DNA from: Pirellulimonas nuda
GTDB lineage: Bacteria; Planctomycetota; Planctomycetia; Pirellulales; Lacipirellulaceae
Length of the DNA stretch: 64,000 nt
Direction of reading: 5' to 3'
Assembly (NCBI RefSeq): GCF_007750855.1
Contig: NZ_CP036291.1
Coordinates: 2,666,001-2,730,000, forward strand
Shown: positions 33,490 to 44,479 of the stretch, piece by piece
Layout: every line of letters starts with the position of its first letter
How positions within the stretch are numbered: position 1 is the first letter of the stretch
Position numbers and translations under genes: made by a program
The notes under the pieces: generated by a model
What the model was told of the DNA's origin: nothing
The model's database searches: none
What the model saw: only the letters and a program-made list of their open reading frames with translations

Positions 33490-34551
33490 CTATCGCGGAG
33501 GGGGAACGGTTCCGTCGGTTTCTACCGGCGGCGTTTCGCCCACTTCGCCGTCGGCTCGCGAGCCGTACGAGTTGTACACGTAGTAGTTGATGTCTTCCGC
33601 AGCGAACTGCACGCTGCCATCGACAAGCGTAAAGTGCGACCCCCCTGGGTGACGGCTCTTAAAGCCGCAGGCGTGATACCAGAGGTCGTCGGTGATGGTG
33701 GCCGAGCCCGGGGGGATGAACGTATTGATTGGGATCGACGTGCTCGCGACGGGGTGGTTGCCGCCAAAAGCCGCGTTGTGTGCGCACTCGTTAGGGAGCG
33801 ATTCGCCAACGATATAGGTCTTGGAGGTGCCGTCGGTCACTCTGGCGATAGTGATCTCGGGGAGCGCAGCGCGGTGCAGCATGCCGTAACCATCCTTCTT
33901 TTCGGTCGATCCGAAAGCGTTGCCGCGACAGCAGTACGAACCAATCTTAGGGCTGGCGCCGCAGAACTCACATCCGCGTGCCCCGCCACGTACGTTGCCG
34001 TCCGCGGTGTTGCCAACCGATCCGGGGTACGAGAGCGCTAGTGACCCCGCGATAGCCCGCGTGGTTGGGTACGGCGTGAGCGACCCAGTGTTCCGTCCTC
34101 GCATGCCCCCCACAAACGGGTTCGAGGCGATATCGTCGCTTGGGCAAAGTAACCCCGCGATGAGCTGCTTCGACGCCTGCGTGTTCGCGACGTTGTCCAG
34201 GTTCACGGTTAGGTTAAACTGGTCGTACTCATTCTGCGCCTCCATGTAGGGCAGGATCGCTACCACCCAGTTCGGCCCAGGAATCATCGAGCAACCAGTT
34301 CCATTGGTTGTTCTGCAAGGGGCGCCGGGCGGGAATTGGCCCTGGGCGTCGTGATAGTTGAGCAGGGCGATGCCGATCTGCTTGAGCTGATTTTGACACT
34401 GCGATCGGCGTGCGGCTTCTCGGGCGGCCTGCACTGCCGGGAGGAGCAACGCTACCAAGATGCCAATAATGGCGATGACCACCAGCAGTTCGACGAGCGT
34501 AAAGGCCCGTTTGCACACCGGCCGGACGGGACGCACTTTAGCGTGAAACAT
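33490..34551 (-). CDS. DUF1559 pseudopilin-like protein
   Basis: 353 residues with a basic leader (MFHAKVRPVRPVCKR) before [20 protein letters not shown] and then LLPAVQAAREAARRSQCQNQ, and the C-terminal HPGGSHFTLVDGSVQFAAED block. AAGGAAG lies 8 nt before the ATG. It sits 75 nt downstream of the three-module PEP-CTERM gene and upstream of the lipoprotein gene, repeating the order seen at 11-13.7 kb. It is the third intact DUF1559 gene of the window. Confidence 0.93.
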   Translation of the reverse strand: MFHAKVRPVRPVCKRAFTLVELLVVIAIIGILVALLLPAVQAAREAARRSQCQNQLKQIGIALLNYHDAQGQFPPGAPCRTTNGTGCSMIPGPNWVVAILPYMEAQNEYDQFNLTVNLDNVANTQASKQLIAGLLCPSDDIASNPFVGGMRGRNTGSLTPYPTTRAIAGSLALSYPGSVGNTADGNVRGGARGCEFCGASPKIGSYCCRGNAFGSTEKKDGYGMLHRAALPEITIARVTDGTSKTYIVGESLPNECAHNAAFGGNHPVASTSIPINTFIPPGSATITDDLWYHACGFKSRHPGGSHFTLVDGSVQFAAEDINYYVYNSYGSRADGEVGETPPVETDGTVPPPR

Positions 34552-34626: not shown

Positions 34627-37600
34627 TTAGGCGCTTAGCAACGTCCGTCGCAAGCGACGAGGCGTCAGGGTGGCGCAGAAAATCGCCGCCACGACTAGCG
34701 CGCTCGGTTCTGGAACCGCGGTGTTTCCGAGGGCGGCAAAGTTCAGCCCCCCTAGTCCGGCGTTCTGCAGGCCGGTGTGCAGGATGAATGCGTCTCGCAG
34801 GTCCGTCACACCGTCGAAGTTCAGATCCCCCTTGGCGTAGCTGTTCAGGTCCCCGACCAATCGGTTGTTCACTAGGTTTCGGTTCTCCCACCCCGCGAGG
34901 AAGGCGTTGGAGTCGAGCGAGTTGACCACCCCGTCCGGCAGGCCCCCAGCTCCCGTGAAGTCGCCCGGGATGGCGCTCAGCTTCGACGCGGCAAAGGCGT
35001 TGTCGGTCGCAAAGTTGAAGGGCCCTCGCTGCAGCCCGTTTGTGGTGGTTCCGATGACGAACATCGACATGTCATCCACAACGCCGGTGAAGAACTCGGT
35101 CGTGCCGACGGTCCCCGAGACCCCCGTGTTGGCGCCGATCACCAACGGGAAGTCCGAGTCGGCGTAGGCGCGGCTGTCGGTCGCAACTGCGACGCCGTTT
35201 ACGTAGAGGACAGACAGGTTGCCGGCGGGGTTGACGAGCTCAACGTGCGACCACGCGTTCGTGGCGGCCGCCAAGGTGGAGGTGGTGCTGGTGCCGCCGT
35301 AGTTCATCTGCCAGAGGCCGGCGGCGGTGATGGTGACGCCGTGCTGGTTCGAGTCTTGCACGACCCGCTGGAGCGTGCCGACCGCGCTCGGGCGGACCCA
35401 GAGCTGGAAGCCCCGGTTGTTGAGGCCGCTGTAGTCGAGGTTGCCGCCGCCGGCGGTGGACGAGGCCGTCAGCGAGGGGCGATTCAGGTTCGCGCCGCTG
35501 AGGAAGCTGGCGCCGTCGAGCGTGATTCCTACGGCGCCGGCCGCGGCGCCGGGTCGGCTGAGGGCGCCCGCGCCCGTGGACGAAACGTTGGCGTACGTCG
35601 CCGCGCCGGACGCCGCCAGGTCCTGAAAGGTGCCCGTCATCGACACGCCGGCGCTGTCAAAGGTCACGCCGCCAACGATCGGATTGCCGGCCGCGCCCCC
35701 CTCGGTTTCGCCGAAACGATAGATACGATCATCAAACTTCGCCTGGGAGGTCGCCGCCCACCCCATCAGCAGCGCCGCCGCGCCGAGAGCGGCCGCCCGA
35801 CGATGCCGCCTGGCGTGCGGGGCGCCCAGCAAAACGCTGGCGAGGATCGTCAGCAGCAAGGCCGCGGCCGGCTCCGGAACGGCCCCGTTCCCGGCGACCG
35901 CGCCGAGCGCGGGGAGCCCAAAGTTGCTCTTCCAGACCGCGTAGTCGGCCTGCGTCACCGAGCCGGGAGTCGTGTCGTTGGGGAGCACGGCAGAGGTCCC
36001 CAGCCTATCTCGCCACACGGTGTAGTCGGCCGCGTCCACGTGGCCGTCGTTGTTGTAGTCGCCGTTCAGGCCCGCGGGGCCGGTGACGTAGGCGACATTC
36101 CCGTTCACAAACGTCCCGTTTGCGAGTTGATAGGTAAACGTCAGGTCCTGGGCGTCGGTGGTCTTGAAGATGGCTCCCAGGTTGATGGGGGTCATGCCGT
36201 CGGCGAACAGGGAGGCCCCTGCCCCACCAATGCCCAGGAACGCTTCTCCCAGAATCTTGTCGGTGGCCACGCCCCCTTCCTCCCAGCCGTTGCCCGTGCC
36301 GTTTCCGGCGGGGAACCCGGCAAGGTTTTGATCTTGCAGGCTGTTCCAATTCGCGGGGACCAGGGAGCCGCCGTTGCTGGCGACGTCGTCGCTCGAGATC
36401 TGGTAGAAGCCCGCGGAGAAATCGGCGCCCGAGGCGTTCTTGATGTACACCCGGCCGGTGTTGGTTTCGACCTCGAGCGTTAGGAGTTGCGGCGCGGGGG
36501 GGAGGGCCAGCGCGGCGATCTCCGAGTTGCTCAGCGCGTTGTTGTAGATGCGAAACTCGTCCAGCAGCCCCGTGAAGCCGTTCGGGATGGCCCCGCCGGT
36601 ATCGATCGACGTGGTGCCGATGCCAAACGCCGAAGCAGCCGTATTGATCGCTTGCCCCGTGCCGCCCCCGCCGGTGGCGGTTACCGCAAGCGCGGAGCCA
36701 TTGAGGAACACATCGACGTTCGCGAAGGTCGAGGCGCCCGCGTTTACGCGAACCGCCAGGTGATGCCAACCCGCGTTCGCGCCCAGGAAGTCGAATCCGG
36801 CGCCATAGGTGATGTTGCCGCCGAAGTGCCGCAATCGGATGCCGCCTGCCTCGAGCCCTACGTCGAGCGCTTGGCCCCCGACGTTGGTCCCGTAGCCGAA
36901 CAGCTTGTTCTGGCCGACGCTCGCGGAATGGTTGAACCACAGCGAGAAGGTCCGCTCGGCGGTCCCCGACGGGACGGCGCCGGACGCGACCGTCATCAGG
37001 TTCTCGAAGTCGCTCAGCATCACGGTGGCGTTCCCGCCTGGGGCGTTGTCGTTCAAGAAGGAGTAGGCCTGTCCAAAAACGCCGACGGCCCCGGTGGTGA
37101 TGTTGGCGCCCCCGTTTGTGCCCGTGGGGGCGGCGTTGTTGGCGCCGGCCAGGTCGGTCTGAGCTTTCGTCCCCGACACAATGTTCGTGTCGTCGAACGA
37201 GTAGCGGGCGATAAGAACGGCGCTTGCGGGAGACGCGGCGAGCGTCGCAACCATGGCCCCAAGCAGGAGCACTAGCGGCTTGCAGCGCCGCCCAACGTGG
37301 AACAGCATCGAAGAACCCTCGCGGCGTGATTTGGAACGGAACAGACAAGCAGCAACCATCAACGCCAAGCCGCCGGCAAGCGAGCTGTGCTCTGGCACTG
37401 CCGACGAGACGGAGGCGAACGCCCCGATACCGTTGGCGGCGTCGAACGCGGTGCGGAAAGCAGAAAAATCGAAGCGGTCGGTGTCGCCATCGCCGTCGAG
37501 GTCGCCCCGGGCGTAATTCGCCAGGCCGGTGGTCGTGTAGGTGGAGAACAGGTTCGAGCGGAAGACGCCCCAGTCGGCGGCGTTGATGGCGCCGTCGAAG

Positions 37601-38823
37601 TTCAGGTCTCCGGTCTGGAAGTGCGCGTCCCCATTGCCTGTGTAGAACACCGAAGCGTTAACAATGCTGCCATCGGCCAGTAGCAGCTCGAACGCGATGT
37701 CTTCGGTCGGGTTGCGGGTCCAGAGCCCGCCCGATTGGCTGAAGTTCACGCTTTGCGCGTTGGCGAGGAAGCCGCCGTTGCCCCCTTCCAGCTCGGCTTC
37801 GGCGAGACTAGTGGTGCTTGTTGCGGGGGAAAGCACGGTCCAATCGTTGTCTGTGTCGACCGACTTGTCCCCCGATTCGTCGTACGCGGTGCTGATCTTG
37901 GTCCAACCTGTCTGGTTGAGGGCGCCGGCCGTGCTCAGCAGGCGATAGCCGAGAATGTTGGCGGTGGCGCCACTGTGTGAGAGCAGAATCCCGCCGGTAC
38001 CCCGATTCACGGTTATGGCGAAGGTGGGCGTGGCGGGCGCCGAGGCCAGCGTCACGATCTCTGAATTAGACAGAGCGTTGTTGTAAATGCGGAAGTCATC
38101 GATCAGGCCGTTGAAGCCGTTGGTGGTTGCGCTGCCGCCGGCGGTGTTCGACGTGTTGCCGATGCCGAGCGGTGAGCTGGTGGTCGCCAGCGTGTCTGCC
38201 AGGTCGATGGCCAACGGGTCTTGGGGCGCGAGCAGCGAGCCGTTCAAGAAGATATCGACGTTCGCAAAGGTCGTGGCGCCCGGGTTGACGCGGACCGCTA
38301 GGTGGTTCCAGCCCGCGTTGGCGCCGAGAAAATTGAGCCCGGTTCCGTAGGTGATGTTGCCGTTGCCGTTTCTGATCCGGACGCCCCCCGCTTCAAGGCC
38401 GACGTCGAATCCTTCGCCTGTGGTGGCGTCCATGTCCGTGTTGACATCGCCGTAGCCGAACAGCTTGTTCTGTCCGCTCAGGGCCAGTTGATTAAACCAG
38501 GTGGTGAACGTCCGCTCCGCGGCGCCGGACGGCGAGACCCCGGCGGGGACAGCGAGCAGGTTCTCGTAGTCGGTGACCGCGGCGCCGGCGCCGGCGCCGG
38601 CGAAACGGAACGCGTCCGCGAAGTAGCCCGATTGCCCGGTGGTGATCCCCGTTCCGCCGTTCGTGCCGGTGGGGACCGCGTTGTTTGAGCCGACGACGTC
38701 GAGGGCCGTCTTGCCGCTGATGCTGGCGTTGTCGAAGGTATAGCGGGACACCAGCACCGCAGATGCCTGTGCTGCGAGCAGCAAGGTTACGCTGAGAAAG
38801 GCGAGCGTTGCTTTCCAGTTCAT
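34627..38823 (-). CDS. Three-module LamG/dockerin/PEP-CTERM fusion protein
   Basis: A single open frame of 1398 residues from ATG 38823 (AAAGG upstream). Module 1 (1-505): signal peptide, LamG-like domain (VSRYTFDNASI, GQNKLFGYGD, NHLAVRVNPG), dockerin loops and a sorting tail (AVPEHSSLAGGLALMVAACL, RSKSRR). Module 2 (506 to about 1010): new signal peptide (MLFHVGRRCKPLVLLLGAMV, then SPASA), homologous LamG domain, dockerin (GDYNNDGHVDAADYTVWRD) and AVPEPAAALLLTILASVLLG. Module 3 (to 1398): a hydrophobic signal-like stretch ending SQA, a different LamG-like domain and AVPEPSALVVAAIFCATL with a basic end. No stop separates the modules. GAGGG lies 8 nt before the internal ATG at 37308, so module 2 could also be started on its own. 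I read it as three genes fused by stop loss. Confidence 0.85.
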   Translation of the reverse strand: MNWKATLAFLSVTLLLAAQASAVLVSRYTFDNASISGKTALDVVGSNNAVPTGTNGGTGITTGQSGYFADAFRFAGAGAGAAVTDYENLLAVPAGVSPSGAAERTFTTWFNQLALSGQNKLFGYGDVNTDMDATTGEGFDVGLEAGGVRIRNGNGNITYGTGLNFLGANAGWNHLAVRVNPGATTFANVDIFLNGSLLAPQDPLAIDLADTLATTSSPLGIGNTSNTAGGSATTNGFNGLIDDFRIYNNALSNSEIVTLASAPATPTFAITVNRGTGGILLSHSGATANILGYRLLSTAGALNQTGWTKISTAYDESGDKSVDTDNDWTVLSPATSTTSLAEAELEGGNGGFLANAQSVNFSQSGGLWTRNPTEDIAFELLLADGSIVNASVFYTGNGDAHFQTGDLNFDGAINAADWGVFRSNLFSTYTTTGLANYARGDLDGDGDTDRFDFSAFRTAFDAANGIGAFASVSSAVPEHSSLAGGLALMVAACLFRSKSRREGSSMLFHVGRRCKPLVLLLGAMVATLAASPASAVLIARYSFDDTNIVSGTKAQTDLAGANNAAPTGTNGGANITTGAVGVFGQAYSFLNDNAPGGNATVMLSDFENLMTVASGAVPSGTAERTFSLWFNHSASVGQNKLFGYGTNVGGQALDVGLEAGGIRLRHFGGNITYGAGFDFLGANAGWHHLAVRVNAGASTFANVDVFLNGSALAVTATGGGGTGQAINTAASAFGIGTTSIDTGGAIPNGFTGLLDEFRIYNNALSNSEIAALALPPAPQLLTLEVETNTGRVYIKNASGADFSAGFYQISSDDVASNGGSLVPANWNSLQDQNLAGFPAGNGTGNGWEEGGVATDKILGEAFLGIGGAGASLFADGMTPINLGAIFKTTDAQDLTFTYQLANGTFVNGNVAYVTGPAGLNGDYNNDGHVDAADYTVWRDRLGTSAVLPNDTTPGSVTQADYAVWKSNFGLPALGAVAGNGAVPEPAAALLLTILASVLLGAPHARRHRRAAALGAAALLMGWAATSQAKFDDRIYRFGETEGGAAGNPIVGGVTFDSAGVSMTGTFQDLAASGAATYANVSSTGAGALSRPGAAAGAVGITLDGASFLSGANLNRPSLTASSTAGGGNLDYSGLNNRGFQLWVRPSAVGTLQRVVQDSNQHGVTITAAGLWQMNYGGTSTTSTLAAATNAWSHVELVNPAGNLSVLYVNGVAVATDSRAYADSDFPLVIGANTGVSGTVGTTEFFTGVVDDMSMFVIGTTTNGLQRGPFNFATDNAFAASKLSAIPGDFTGAGGLPDGVVNSLDSNAFLAGWENRNLVNNRLVGDLNSYAKGDLNFDGVTDLRDAFILHTGLQNAGLGGLNFAALGNTAVPEPSALVVAAIFCATLTPRRLRRTLLSA

Positions 38824-38938: not shown

Positions 38939-40777
38939 CTAAAGTTGGCGTAGCAAGACGAGGAGCGTGGAACCAACTATGAGCGCGGCCGAGCCGGGTT
39001 CTGGCACCGCGGCACTATCTAGTGCCGACAGTGCGTTTGGCCCGTGTGCCGCAGCGTAGGCTTCGCGGAACGAAGCGAAGTCGAATCGGTTGATCAGGCC
39101 GTCCTGCGTGATGTCTCCCAGAGCGTAGGCGGCCTGCGGGTCGAGGTTGGAGACGTCGGAAAAAAGGTTCTGCCTCAGGATCGACCAGTCTTCCGGATCG
39201 ATCTGCCCACTGTTGTTGAAGTCGCCCGGGACCAACGCGAACAGCACGTTCGGTGCGGCAACCGGTTGTCCGGTCGCCCGGCTGATGGGCATCTGGGCGT
39301 CGACGTCGATCAGGTAGTCGCGCAGCGCCTGGCTCAGGTTCAGCGCCACCATTGGGTTGTCGGCCAGTACGTTGGTGGTCTCCGACAGGTCCGTGGCCAA
39401 GTTGTAGAGCTCGTAGTGCCGATCTTCGTAGAAGAAGATCAGCTTCCACTGGTCGTCGCGGACCGCGCTGACGAACGAGCCGCCAGAGATCAGGGCGCTG
39501 CTGTTGTCCTGAGGGCTGACGTGCGGGTAGTGCCAGAATTGAAAGCCACGGTCGTACGCCTGTCCCTCGAGCGCGCTGAGAATCGAGACGCCGTCGATGT
39601 CGGTGTTCTGTGGGACCGTCGCCGAACCGAGCGCCCCGGCCGCGTCGAGGAAGGTGGGGTAGAGGTCTTCGGAGGAAGTGCGGGCCGTGGAGATCACGCC
39701 CTGCGCGATCGAGGCGTTTCCGGTCCAGCTCACGATCTGGGGCGTGCGGATGCCCCCCTCGTACATGCTCCCTTTTCCATCGCGTAGCGGGAGGTTTCGC
39801 GTGGGGCTCCCTTCGGCGCCGTACAGACCGCCGTTGTCCGACGCGAACACAATCAGCGTGTTGTCGCGGATGCTGTCGCTCATGTTGCCGTCGCCGTTGG
39901 GGTCTTCCAGGCTGTCGAGCAGGGCGCCGAGCGACTGGTCCATCTTCTCAACCATCGCCGCGTAGGTCGGGTTGTCGTGCTCCTGCAGGTTGACCCCCTG
40001 CGACTGCAGTGTGCTGATCTTCTGCTGGTACTTGGCAACAAGGTCCGCGGGGCCCTGGAGCGGCGTGTGGACGAGGTAGTGGGCCAGTTCCAGGAAGAAG
40101 GGCCCCTCCGCCTCATCGGCGATGAACTCGGCGGCCTTCTCCGAGAGCGCGTCGGAGAGGTACTTGTCAGACGGGTAGGTTCCGGGTGTGTTGAGCCCCG
40201 GCATCTGCGCCCAGGCGCCGTCGCTTCCGGCAAAGAACCCGCCATTGCTGCCCGGGTTGCCGAAGGTCCCGCCCCCGACGTTCACGTCGAACCCGTTCTG
40301 CAACGGGTCGGCACCGGCGTTGCCGGCTTGGCCGAGGTGCCACTTTCCGAAGAACCCTGTGCGGTAGCCATCGGCGGAGAGGGCTTCCGCGATCGTGGTC
40401 TCGCTGGCGGCGAGGTTCTTGGTCCAGTTCGGCTGGGTAAGATTGGCGGTGCTGACGCCAGAGCCGGAGATCCAGTCGGTAATCCGGGTGCGGGCCGGGG
40501 TCTTGCCGGTGGTGATCGCGGCCCGAGTAGGAGAGCACACGGGGCACGCCGCGTACGCGTTGGTGAGGTTCTGCCCCTGCTGCGCAAGGCGGAGCATGTT
40601 CGGGGTCTCGTAGAGCAGGCTGCCGGTGGGGTTGAGCTGGGCGTCGCGTTGCCAATCGGTCCAGCCCATGTCGTCGACGAGGAACAGAACAACGTTGGGC
40701 TTTGCGTGAAGGTGCCCCGACACCAGGAACGCGGCGAGCGTCCCGAAGAGAGACAAGTGGCAGAATAAACTAGGCAC
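38939..40777 (-). CDS. Secreted sulfatase with dockerin and PEP-CTERM tail
   Basis: 612 residues from GTG 40777, which has GAGGCG upstream and gives a signal peptide ending SGHLHA. The metal-binding DD is at 35-36 (LFLVDDMGWTDW), and the formylglycine site CSPTR begins at Cys81. GKWHLGQ and FASDNGG are also present. After the sulfatase domain come two dockerin-type loops (GDFNNSGQIDPEDWSILRQ and a DITQDGLINRFDF loop), then AVPEPGSAALIVGSTLLVLL. A sulfatase that carries its own dockerin and PEP-CTERM tail is unusual compared with the other two sulfatases in the window; it should be displayed at the cell surface. The start of the next gene lies 115 nt downstream. Confidence 0.93.
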   Translation of the reverse strand: MPSLFCHLSLFGTLAAFLVSGHLHAKPNVVLFLVDDMGWTDWQRDAQLNPTGSLLYETPNMLRLAQQGQNLTNAYAACPVCSPTRAAITTGKTPARTRITDWISGSGVSTANLTQPNWTKNLAASETTIAEALSADGYRTGFFGKWHLGQAGNAGADPLQNGFDVNVGGGTFGNPGSNGGFFAGSDGAWAQMPGLNTPGTYPSDKYLSDALSEKAAEFIADEAEGPFFLELAHYLVHTPLQGPADLVAKYQQKISTLQSQGVNLQEHDNPTYAAMVEKMDQSLGALLDSLEDPNGDGNMSDSIRDNTLIVFASDNGGLYGAEGSPTRNLPLRDGKGSMYEGGIRTPQIVSWTGNASIAQGVISTARTSSEDLYPTFLDAAGALGSATVPQNTDIDGVSILSALEGQAYDRGFQFWHYPHVSPQDNSSALISGGSFVSAVRDDQWKLIFFYEDRHYELYNLATDLSETTNVLADNPMVALNLSQALRDYLIDVDAQMPISRATGQPVAAPNVLFALVPGDFNNSGQIDPEDWSILRQNLFSDVSNLDPQAAYALGDITQDGLINRFDFASFREAYAAAHGPNALSALDSAAVPEPGSAALIVGSTLLVLLRQL

Positions 40778-40925
40778 GATGTGACGCCTCGGTTTTGAGC
40801 GGAACTGCTTGACGTTTGCGGTGGGGCATATCGGGGGCCCGCGCCGCGATGGACTAGCGGGGGGCGCCCCGACTCCCAAATGGGCGCCTTCCCGCTAGCC
40901 GGATCGGGTTGTGAAAAACGTGTGG

Positions 40926-41798
40926 TTACGCCGTTCGAGCAACGCAGCGTCTGGCCTTCATGCCGGTCAGCAGCGCGACGCCGGCCACGAGTGACAGCAG
41001 CGAACCGGGTTCGGGCACCGGCCGCGTCGCCAGTTGGCTGATCTCTGTGTTGGACAACGCGGTGTCGTAGATCTGCAGCTCGTCCAGCAAGCCGGTGAAG
41101 CCGTTTTGGATCGCCCCGCCGGTCGGAATAGACGTAGTGCCGATCCCAAAAGCCGATGCAGCAGTATTGAGCGTTGTGGCGGTGGAACCGGCGCCCGTAA
41201 GTTGGGCGCCGTCCAGAAACACATCGACATCAGCGAAGGTCGAAGCTCCGGGGTTAACGCGTACCGCCAGGTGATGCCACCCCTCGTTGGCGCCGCCGGT
41301 CGCAAAATCGTTGCCGGATCCGTACAGGATATTCCCGCCAAAGTGGCGGAGTCGGATGCCCCCCGCCTCGAGCCCGACATCGATCGCTTGGCCGCCGACG
41401 TTGGTCCCATATCCGAATAGTTTGTTCTGGCCGGAATCGGCTGTGGTCTGATTGAACCAGACCGAGATCGTCCGATCATTGGCTCCTGAGGGGACCGCGC
41501 CGGAGGCGATGGTCATTAGGTTCTCGAAGTCCGTGAGCGACTGCGTGGCGCTGCCGCTCGGGAGCGCGTCGCGGACGAAGGCGTACGCCTGACCGAACTG
41601 TCCCGCCTGGCCGGTCGTGATGTTCGATCCGCCGCCCGTTCCGGTCGGCGTGGCGTTGTCTAAGCCGACGAGGTCGGCCTGCCCCTTGGTGGCGCCCACG
41701 ATGTCCGCATCATCAAACGAGTAGCGATGGACAAGCGCCCCGTGTGACGCGGGCGTCAACAGCAACGCCCCCAACAAGCCGCAGTAGGTGAGTCTCAT
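40926..41798 (-). CDS. LamG-like PEP-CTERM protein
   Basis: 290 residues from ATG 41798 with GGGAG upstream and a signal peptide ending ASHGA. The domain (LVHRYSFDDADIVGATKGQA, SGQNKLFGYGTNVGGQAIDV, LEAGGIRLRHFGGN, NGFTGLLDELQIYD) is closely similar to modules 1 and 2 of the fusion protein at 34627-38823, so this locus holds at least three copies of the same LamG domain. The tail is PVPEPGSLLSLVAGVALLTG with a basic end. No dockerin. It is first in the probable operon with the sulfatase (149 nt apart). Confidence 0.88.
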   Translation of the reverse strand: MRLTYCGLLGALLLTPASHGALVHRYSFDDADIVGATKGQADLVGLDNATPTGTGGGSNITTGQAGQFGQAYAFVRDALPSGSATQSLTDFENLMTIASGAVPSGANDRTISVWFNQTTADSGQNKLFGYGTNVGGQAIDVGLEAGGIRLRHFGGNILYGSGNDFATGGANEGWHHLAVRVNPGASTFADVDVFLDGAQLTGAGSTATTLNTAASAFGIGTTSIPTGGAIQNGFTGLLDELQIYDTALSNTEISQLATRPVPEPGSLLSLVAGVALLTGMKARRCVARTA

Positions 41799-42300
41799 TA
41801 GTCGAATCTCCCAGAGAAGTGAGCCCCCAGCAGCGCCGGCCGACACGGCCGCCCAGCCCCCAGGGGATTTAACAGGTCGGTTGCGGTGCGGAATCCGTAC
41901 GGCTTAGCTTGGTGTCGGGCATTGAAGTAGTCCGCTCGCAAGCCCGCGCGGCCGCTGCGGACACGGGCGTGTAAAGTCTGTCTCTCTTGGCTGCCGGCTG
42001 CCTGACGACGACTGGTCGAGCGGCGATCGAGCAAGCCATCATGAGAGGGTCTGCGGAAGTAGGTGAAAGACAATGGGAACGCAGCGGAGGCCTACGTGCG
42101 CCACGCTACGTCTACCGTCAACTCAATCCAGGAAAGGGTTGTTCGCTCGACACAGTCCGAAAGTGAAAAGGCCTCGAACGAGGCGTCGCCGCAAGCTTGG
42201 GGAGCGTTGCTAGCTTACCTGTTCTATTCCCATCGACGGCCCATCCATCAGACTATCAGCTCGGCATTGTCATAGTTCGTAACAAACGTTACAGATTTGG
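41799..42300. other. Upstream region without a recognised gene
   Basis: About 500 nt between the LamG gene and a DUF1559 pseudogene. No convincing coding sequence, RNA or repeat is seen. It should hold the promoter of the minus-strand cluster. Confidence 0.5.
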
Positions 42301-42735
42301 TCATTCCGGAAATCGAACCGAGCGAAGCGCCTCCGTACGACTCCGAATGGTCTGTCCTGCCTTGAGGTTCGATTGGCCCGAGGGGTTCACGACCTGCGAG
42401 CGGTAGCTCTTGTTGCCGGTGAAGTCGAGCTGGTCATAGAGCGGTTGTTCCTCGATGAACCGAAGCGACTCGATCGCCCAATCGGATCCCCTCGCGTCGT
42501 GTCCGGCGACTGGGTCGTCGCTGTAGAACCTGTCGAAGAAGAGGCCACCCGGCGGCAGCGCGTTCTTGGACGACTCGTGATTCAGAGCCGCGATCCCCAT
42601 TTGCTTGAGGTAGTTCTGACACTGACTGCTGCGGGCCGCTTCCCGGGCGGACTGCACGGCGGGGAGCAGCGCCACTAAGATGCCGATCACCACGAGCAAC
42701 TCGACCAGCGCGGATCTATTTCCAAGACGCTTCAT
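42301..42735 (-). pseudogene. Degenerate DUF1559 gene
   Basis: From ATG 42735 the frame encodes [20 protein letters not shown] followed by [20 protein letters not shown] and [20 protein letters not shown]. Compared with intact copies, the FT before LVELL, the AI repeat of AIIGIL and one L of LLLPAV are missing, which shortens the prepilin helix. The frame ends after 144 codons, less than half the usual length, with no C-terminal DG-SV block. It lies beside the IS701 element, 210 nt from its end. It is likely a relic. Confidence 0.75.
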
Positions 42736-42891
42736 CGAAGGGTCGCCGCACGAGTCAAGGCGACAAAGCAATGAGCCCGTTTCATATCGCAGCCGGGGGG
42801 GTCGAAGCCCAGAAAAGAGCGGATGCACCAAACCGCGGACGCTACGCCGCCGGGCGCCTCGGACGGCGCTGCCGACGCCAGACCAAGTTCA

Positions 42892-42960: not shown

Positions 42961-44401
42961 TCACGTCCATCTGCAGCGTATCAGGCCTTTGAGAATGATG
43001 CCGTTTCTCCGCAGTTTTTTCAGGGTTCGCTTCCGGTGGGAGGCCCGCGCGGCGGCGTTGCGTTGTTGCCAGTGCTGGATGACGTTGGCGGTGTGCTCGA
43101 TGAGCGTCGGCGAGGCCCGGCCGTTACGCTGCCAACTCGGCAGCAGCGCGCCGACGGCGGCGTGGACTTGGCAGACCGTGACCTCCGGATTTTTTCCCCC
43201 GCAGCCGTTCACGACAGCGGGCCAGGAACAAGTAGCTGACGCACGACAGGATCAAATGGCGTTTGAGACCGAGGTAACAGCGGCCCTCCCACTGATCGAG
43301 TCCGATCTCCTGCTTCTGGTCGCGGAAGCACCGTTCGACGCGCCACCGCGAGAACGCAACCAGCAACAACGTCTCGATGGTCGTGTCGGACGGGGCGTTG
43401 CTGATGAAATACTTCACCTCATCGTGGTTCAATGCGTTGCGGGCGACGAGCAGGTGGAGTTCGATCCCCGGCAACCCGTCGTCGTTCTTCATGACGATGC
43501 GGGCGTGCTTCGCCTCCCACACGAGCGGCCCCTTCTCGCCGTCCTTCACGTAGTACCGGGTCCACGCTTGATCGCGCAGCTCGGGCCAGTTCTCGGCGAG
43601 GTCTTGCACGCTCTGCGGGGCGCTCGCTGCGGCGACCAACCGCGGGACCTTGCGGGGCCGGCCGCGACCGCCGCGGCGAAAGGGTCGCTCCGTCACGCGC
43701 GGCCGGTCGGTCCAACACGAGAACGTCGTCGGGACCTCGGCGACGAAGCGTTGCTTTCGACCGTCCAAGCCCTGCAAAAACAGCGGCTTTCCGCCGTAGC
43801 CTTCGTCGAACGTCAGCCAGTCGAACATCACGCCGTGGGCCGCGGCCCGATCGCAAAGCTCCAGGGCGATCTTCCACTTGGAGCGGTAGACCATGTCCTC
43901 GGGAATGCCGGCGGCCCGACACCGCTGGCGGTCCTCCGACCAACTCTCCGGCAAGAACAGCTCGCCGTCGACCAGCGCGTGGAAGTCGCCGGTCGCGTAG
44001 CCCAAGTGGACCGTGACGATGCCGTTCTCCTGCTTGCCGACGCAGCCGCAGTACTGCCGCTGCACGCCGGGCGTCTTGTCCCCCTTCTTGACGTCGCTCG
44101 TTTCGTCGATCAGGCCGATCGAGTGCGGCCCCGCATGATCTCGGAGGACGATCTCTTGGAGTCGCCGGCGCACGGCGTCTTCGTCCCAGCGGTGCTGGGC
44201 CAGGAACTCTTGCAGCGTCCGCGGCGCCACTCCGGCGGCCAGCGCCATCGGCTCGCAACTCTTCGCGGGCAGTTCGGAGAGTTGGCCTTCGACGTAGGTT
44301 GGCAAGTGCGCACGAGTATCCCGACGCGAGAAACAGGCGTCGAATTCGTGCAAGTAACTCGTCAATTCCGGCTTCAAACGGCGGATCTCATCGGCGTCCA
44401 T
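42961..44401 (-). CDS. IS701-family DDE transposase, frameshifted near the C-terminus
   Basis: From ATG 44401 (MDADEIRRLKPELTSYLHEF) the frame shows the IS701 transposase plan: AGVAPRTLQEFLAQHRWDED, GLIDETSDVKKGDKTPGVQR with the first catalytic Asp, LTFDEGYGGK with the second, and SRWRVERCFRDQKQEIGLDQ with the Glu. At about 43200 a run GGGGGAAAAAAT shifts the frame: the primary frame goes on with unrelated residues to 43124, while the other frame continues the family C-terminus (KNPEVTVCQVHAAV, HWQQRNAAARASHRKRTLKK, to 42961). Removing one A from the A6 run restores one frame. It is either a point mutation or is rescued by slippage. Confidence 0.85.
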
Positions 44402-44479
44402 GCTAGCGGCCCTGCGCCAGGTCGCCCCCCTGCGACACCAACAACATGGCCGATCGCCCAAACGCAAACAAGATCAACG

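Follow-up and report, generated by a model that had tools for sequence, protein, structure and literature searches.

Can one bacterial reading frame encode several surface proteins, each with its own export signal and its own anchor? The question is raised by a frame of 1398 codons on the minus strand (34627-38823) of the window analysed here, which is a stretch of 64,000 nucleotides from Pirellulimonas nuda (Planctomycetota, Lacipirellulaceae; NZ_CP036291.1, positions 2,666,001 to 2,730,000) and part of a single-contig genome of 6.62 Mb. The frame chains three units, called A, B and C below, each of which opens with a signal-peptide-like segment and closes with a tail resembling the PEP-CTERM sorting signal. 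With a probability of roughly three in four, we read it as a secreted surface polyprotein whose hairpin joints exosortase and signal peptidase would cleave, giving three separately anchored proteins. That a single chain is encoded in one frame is close to certain, and its processing into separate products is likely, judging from the sequence signals at the joints.

Three units in one open frame

The frame and its parts are as follows.

34627-38823, minus strand: putative polyprotein frame of three units, running for 1398 codons from the ATG at 38823 up to the stop codon at 34629-34627
38758-38823, minus strand: signal peptide at the N terminus of unit A (by eye)
37399-38757, minus strand: mature part of unit A, with LamG (PF13385), a middle domain and a dockerin-like repeat (PF00404)
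37318-37398, minus strand: internal sorting tail 1, with VPEH, a hydrophobic stretch and basic residues (simple rule and eye)
37316-37320, minus strand: GAGGG, Shine-Dalgarno-like, 7 nucleotides 5' of the unit B ATG
37219-37308, minus strand: internal signal peptide opening unit B, starting from an ATG of its own (37308)
35881-37218, minus strand: mature part of unit B, with LamG, a middle domain and a dockerin-like motif (by eye)
35797-35880, minus strand: internal sorting tail 2, with VPEP, a hydrophobic stretch and RRHRR (simple rule and eye)
35740-35796, minus strand: internal signal peptide of unit C, with no ATG ahead of its hydrophobic core
34717-35739, minus strand: mature part of unit C, a lectin-like fold with a dockerin-like helical C terminus (predicted fold)
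34630-34716, minus strand: terminal sorting tail, with VPEP

Translation from 38823 to 34627 meets no internal stop, confirming the stop-free frame with three chained units that the first-pass annotation had described. The tail motifs lie at residues 476 (VPEH), 982 (VPEP) and 1370 (VPEP), each followed by a hydrophobic stretch and then by basic residues, and behind the basic residues of both internal tails comes a signal-peptide-like segment, in keeping with the earlier placement of two such junctions at about residues 480 and 983. By eye and by a simple rule, the tails show the motif, helix and basic end of PEP-CTERM signals (two VPEP, one VPEH), but two of the three tags are internal and not near the extreme C terminus. 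The frame contains what a polyprotein would contain, that is, several export-competent proteins within one open frame, and the same genome encodes exosortase (PF09721) at two places, with scores of 199 and 162 bits.

The annotation had also called all three units signal peptide-LamG-PEP-CTERM modules, which holds for the number of units and for their tails and only partly for the domain names. When units were scanned singly against Pfam, LamG (PF13385) was found in A and B, the dockerin-like repeat of A (PF00404) fell below its cut-off, and unit C gave no match at E ≤ 0.01; the scan of the whole protein returned three LamG stretches at E ≤ 1, and unit C may carry a weak LamG domain. The structure predicted for unit C (predicted local distance difference test score, pLDDT, 93.9) is a lectin-like sandwich with a helical end, and its best matches among solved structures are a GH43 arabinanase domain, trans-sialidases, the LamG domain of agrin, CBM40 and pentraxins, at query template-modelling scores of about 0.3 to 0.46. 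For unit A the AlphaFold model has a pLDDT of 67. The LamG domains of A and B and the fold of C suggest that the products would be glycan-binding surface proteins.

The arrangement recurs in the same genome, where a whole-protein search found four further A-B-C frames of 1418-1516 amino acids (L029, L030, L031 and L033; the terminal tail of L031 was not recognised) and a series of two-unit frames (L032, L034-L038 and L043), to which L265 was added later. With the frame of the window included, these 13 frames hold 18 joints, and L042 is a further, less certain candidate. In cross-matching, C units pair with C units and A and B share their LamG parts, A and B being alike within some frames (45% identity over 427 amino acids in the window, 51% in L030); across loci, the non-LamG parts of A mostly match other A units and those of B other B units, except that the second unit of L034 matches A. 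The three-unit frames also supplied a profile for each unit.

Conservation of the chain and of its joints

Across the Lacipirellulaceae, unit C occurs in 24 of 43 genomes and 12 of 14 genera (E ≤ 1e-10), mostly in open frames of about 1280-1660 amino acids. The loci compared here were fetched from this list of C units, four short partial matches excepted; a later profile search found at least one further long frame outside the fetched set (G003:C1:3943396, 1496 amino acids). A strict three-tail A-B-C test was passed by 47 frames, 46 of them distinct once one duplicate region was set aside, and 63 of the 81 distinct C units continue an upstream unit in the same frame, 55 of these 63 following two units. 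Of the others, two are the first unit of a fused frame (C-A or C-A-B) and 16 seem separate, some of these lying near contig ends. The hosts include several single-contig genomes, several metagenome-assembled genomes and one named isolate, Aeoliella straminimaris (Lacipirellulaceae). A raw motif count, independent of our tail detector, placed a PEP-like motif within 110 amino acids upstream in 63 of the 64 C units that have more than 150 amino acids of upstream frame; the sole exception is a separate gene whose frame simply extends upstream.

The same units also occur apart. A, B and C are adjacent separate genes in the same order at two loci (L099 and L106), A stands apart from a fused B-C at four (L082, L090, L116 and L139), and C stands apart from a fused A-B at two (L101 and L103). 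Other frames permute the order (C-A-B in L157, B-C-A in L158, C-A in L156) or run to four and five units (L087 and L089). Since they are found both fused and separate, the units are therefore presumably functional in either form, which would fit separately processed proteins. A tree rooted at the midpoint only, built from 77 C units because four of the 81 were too short, contains two all-fused groups, one of 17 rows from 8 genomes and 6 genera (support 100/100) and one of 11 rows from 7 genera (support 100/99). It requires 7 changes between the fused and split states, 5 of them forced by well-supported branches, with 16 rows labelled split, among them L156 and L157, which begin the fused C-A and C-A-B frames; the C unit of the window pairs with the fused L091 (support 94/85). 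From this tree we regard the fusion as old and kept.

The joints themselves look like a cassette. In the family set, a signal-peptide-like segment follows 138 of 139 internal tails, compared with 68 of 920 length-matched segments taken at random within unit B, and the linker between tail and signal segment has a median of 11 residues and a net charge of +2 or more in 138/138 joints, although the detectors already require at least one basic residue. The first detector output included false frames (on the plus strand of L032, L044 and L047); later counts kept only frames in which domains of A, B or C occur, with the doubtful L039 and L042 still included. Internal and terminal tails, chosen by one motif rule, match the PEP-CTERM model TIGR02595 at E ≤ 0.01 in 102 of 136 and 47 of 66 cases, and because these rates are similar, the internal tags appear no more decayed than the terminal ones.

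Proposed processing and its rivals

Taking together the single frame, the hairpin signals, their conservation and the exosortase genes, we infer the topology, both cuts, the anchoring and the benefit of a fixed ratio, as follows. One translated chain would comprise three lectin-like proteins. Sec would export unit A until the hydrophobic helix of the first tail halts transfer and leaves the basic end in the cytoplasm; the next signal peptide would then resume export, making each joint a membrane hairpin. Signal peptidase I would release the N terminus of the following unit, and exosortase would cut at the PEP tail, anchoring the C terminus of the preceding one. The outcome would be three proteins, separately anchored and in fixed ratio. 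Such processing is suggested because PEP motifs are kept and signal peptides follow them.

Several observations weigh against this proposal. Signal peptides and tails were detected by simple rules of our own making, and all three tails of the window, the terminal one included, score under the Pfam and NCBIfam cut-offs for PEP-CTERM, a second respect in which the module description given earlier did not hold: tail 2 reaches 11 bits with TIGR02595 (cut-off 16), the terminal tail 11.5 bits with PF07589 (cut-off 20.7), and tail 1, with its VPEH, has no match to a PEP-CTERM model. None of the 87 matches to PF07589 in the P. nuda genome falls in the frame (150 of 274 candidates scored), and a profile of the joints, described below, detects neither joint of the window at E ≤ 0.01, with 150 of 686 candidates scored. 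The hairpins also evolve fast. Their rate of nonsynonymous substitution (dN) exceeds that of the rest of the protein in 8/8 pairs of relatives (for example 0.39 versus 0.08 in L118/L110), and relative to synonymous substitution (dS) it is likewise higher, with dN/dS of 0.24-0.66 in hairpins versus 0.07-0.35 elsewhere (5 of the 8 pairs, in which hairpin dS is unsaturated). This suits signals that are discarded and kept only in physical character, but also suits relaxed constraint. Finally, Shine-Dalgarno-like sites precede 22 of 83 joint ATGs versus 85 of 1155 other internal ATGs (N-terminal starts, 30 of 55), the strong form of the site precedes 19% of 84 joint ATGs versus 2.5% of 2943 other joint codons, and 13 of 140 joints, the window's first among them, combine an ATG with a strong site, one of these 13 being doubtful (in a second frame of L033). 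Unit B of the window may therefore also be made alone from the ATG at 37308.

How far such internal starts go is the issue for the idea that the units are translated mainly independently and that the open frame is incidental. The ATG at 37308 with GAGGG at 37320-37316, 7 nucleotides before it, was correctly noticed in the first-pass annotation and is a plausible start, and the enrichment of Shine-Dalgarno sites at joint ATGs points the same way; but this start is atypical, with 86 of 138 joints lacking an ATG candidate and 31 offering no start codon of any kind (ATG, GTG or TTG) with a basic n-region behind it, whereas an ATG is present in 39 of the 43 signal peptides at the N terminus of unit A. 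In the window, the signal segment of unit C has no ATG or GTG before its hydrophobic core, there being two in-frame TTGs within the preceding tail and one ATG inside the core. A ribosome in unit A encounters no stop, moreover, and an incidental fusion would hardly be kept across six or seven genera, which makes this account quite improbable; some units may be made both ways, or the sites may be retained relics of separate genes. We also consider it unlikely that the chain stays uncut, as a multi-anchor membrane protein that carries three lectin domains on hairpin anchors. The same topology would be expected in that case, and the joints evolve fast, yet a plain anchor would have no need of a P-E-P motif, the internal tails match the PEP-CTERM model as often as the terminal ones do, and versions with the same units in the same order as separate genes exist.

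A fresh stop-loss fusion of tandem duplicates, which the first-pass annotation had set beside the surface polyprotein, or else a sequencing or assembly artefact, would explain the likeness of A and B in the window and has a parallel in the duplication of units at another locus (L264, below). The comparison with relatives that the annotation had proposed did find stops between modules, though in a minority; most C units are fused upstream with no stop. The same design stands at 46 distinct loci, in several single-contig genomes, the named isolate and several metagenome-assembled genomes, and related fused copies occur across genera, including the all-fused clades over six and seven genera, so that a fresh fusion or artefact can practically be dismissed. 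The surface polyprotein is supported by this recurrent architecture and by the related fused genes across genera, cleavage itself being the conditional part. Three further candidates were rejected: stop-codon reassignment, as no stop requires readthrough; a programmed frameshift, as there is a single frame; and assembly error, as many independent assemblies agree.

Neighbouring genes, wider spread and known systems

Three genes flank the frame.

33490-34551, minus strand: DUF1559 (PF07596) pseudopilin-like gene, directly downstream, a recurrent neighbour of unit C loci
38939-40879, minus strand: upstream sulfatase with a dockerin-like repeat (just under the Pfam cut-off) and a PEP-like tail
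40926-41846, minus strand: stand-alone LamG protein that ends in a PEP-like tail and shares 65% identity with unit B across 288 amino acids

A DUF1559-type pseudopilin N terminus, recognised by motif, lies within 900 nucleotides downstream in 40 of the 75 C frames for which the sequence reaches far enough. The P. nuda genome has 90 matches to PF07596, partial ones counted, and by our estimate the density of such genes is too low to explain this adjacency by chance; we speculate that the products are exported further with a dedicated pseudopilin. Elsewhere in the window, a shortened DUF1559-like gene (42301-42831) adjoins a frame (43124-44467) that we take to resemble a transposase.

Beyond the family, the joints were followed with a profile (A5) of 61 joints, none from the window, picked for a strict A-x-A motif and short linkers. 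Of 246 genomes from the order, 45 give matches at E ≤ 3e-8, and 22 of these 45 belong to the Lacipirellulaceae; some match by plain tails only. With ten candidates scored in each genome, the C profile matches 25 of 196 genomes of the order, of which 22 belong to the family and three match weakly, and unit C is almost confined to the family within the order. The longest chains lie in other families of the order.

L262:3-7595, plus strand: ten-tail frame of 2531 amino acids, open at its 5' end (genome G068, another family of the order)
L263:561-7454, minus strand: eight-tail frame of 2298 amino acids (G068)
L264:2594-9874, minus strand: seven-tail frame of 2427 amino acids (genome G086)

Genome G068 has at least 28 matches to the joint profile, and the units of its two frames are mostly dissimilar. 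Among the ten units of L262, two clearly resemble each other (57%) and the remaining matches are short or weak; because its units are mostly unlike, chaining is more than tandem duplication. L264, on the other hand, is unit duplication with the frame kept: six units are 61-89% alike, one tested unit matching FGE-sulfatase (PF03781, sulfatase-modifying factor), and the third, 43-51% alike, matches only weak propeller-type families. It is on balance probable that these frames belong to a general Pirellulales system of secreted polyproteins with 2 to 10 units, in which the joint would be a standard cassette of exosortase tail, basic turn and signal peptide that two proteases cut, so that related or unrelated surface proteins would be exported and anchored at fixed ratio from a single translation product, cassettes being gained, lost and permuted in evolution. 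A scan of the phylum gave no match at E ≤ 1e-9, a result that carries no weight; at 1e-6 it matched 23 of 199 genomes, P. nuda included, mostly by tails without a joint (at most 35 candidates scored per genome), and full-length in-frame joints outside the order were found in it only in G322 (a frame of 1241 amino acids) and G404 (988 and 762 amino acids). Candidate tail-signal peptide joints outside the order are those of L282 (G322:C36) and of L283 and L304 (G404).

The architecture is real and conserved, and it extends the exosortase sorting system without adding a new enzyme system. Judged by title and abstract opening, none of the openly licensed papers that our searches returned is about tandem PEP-CTERM polyproteins. 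The units resemble known exosortase substrates in being surface proteins with a signal peptide, PEP motif, helix and basic end, and differ in the position of their tags. In the passages concerned, the founding description of PEP-CTERM places the tag near the C terminus "virtually without exception" and considers a few proteins with much longer tails as possibly non-functional (PMC1569441); against this C-terminal definition, 63 of the 81 third units read in one family are preceded by an internal tag. The closest experimental precedent is HVO_0405 of Haloferax volcanii, which also has a sorting tag in mid-protein, is described as the product of a two-gene fusion, and is cleaved at its central tripartite tag in dependence on the exosortase-like ArtA (PMC7157517). 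It is a strain-specific, two-domain archaeal fusion, however, and the passages describing it mention neither repeated tail-signal peptide units nor a conserved family of chains. MXAN_5598 of Myxococcus xanthus likewise bears an internal sorting tag, MYXO-CTERM, and the authors of the study suggest processing and anchoring of its N-terminal part (PMC11980579); as presented in those passages, it is one protein with another tag and another protease, and its processing is only proposed.

If the joints are cut, gene finders that equate a frame with a protein would arrive at a wrong number of surface proteins in these organisms, and the frames would be natural multi-site substrates with products of distinct size, offering an easy exosortase assay. 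Among bacterial membrane polyproteins, FbcH, the cytochrome b/c1 precursor of Bradyrhizobium, is cut by signal peptidase at a signal sequence inside the chain, and differs in being one fusion of respiratory subunits without sorting tails. Viral membrane polyproteins alternate stop-transfer and signal sequences that are cut by signal peptidase, with no exosortase cut. To our knowledge, membrane polyproteins on such a scale are known only from viruses; with cut joints, bacteria too would employ them on a large scale.

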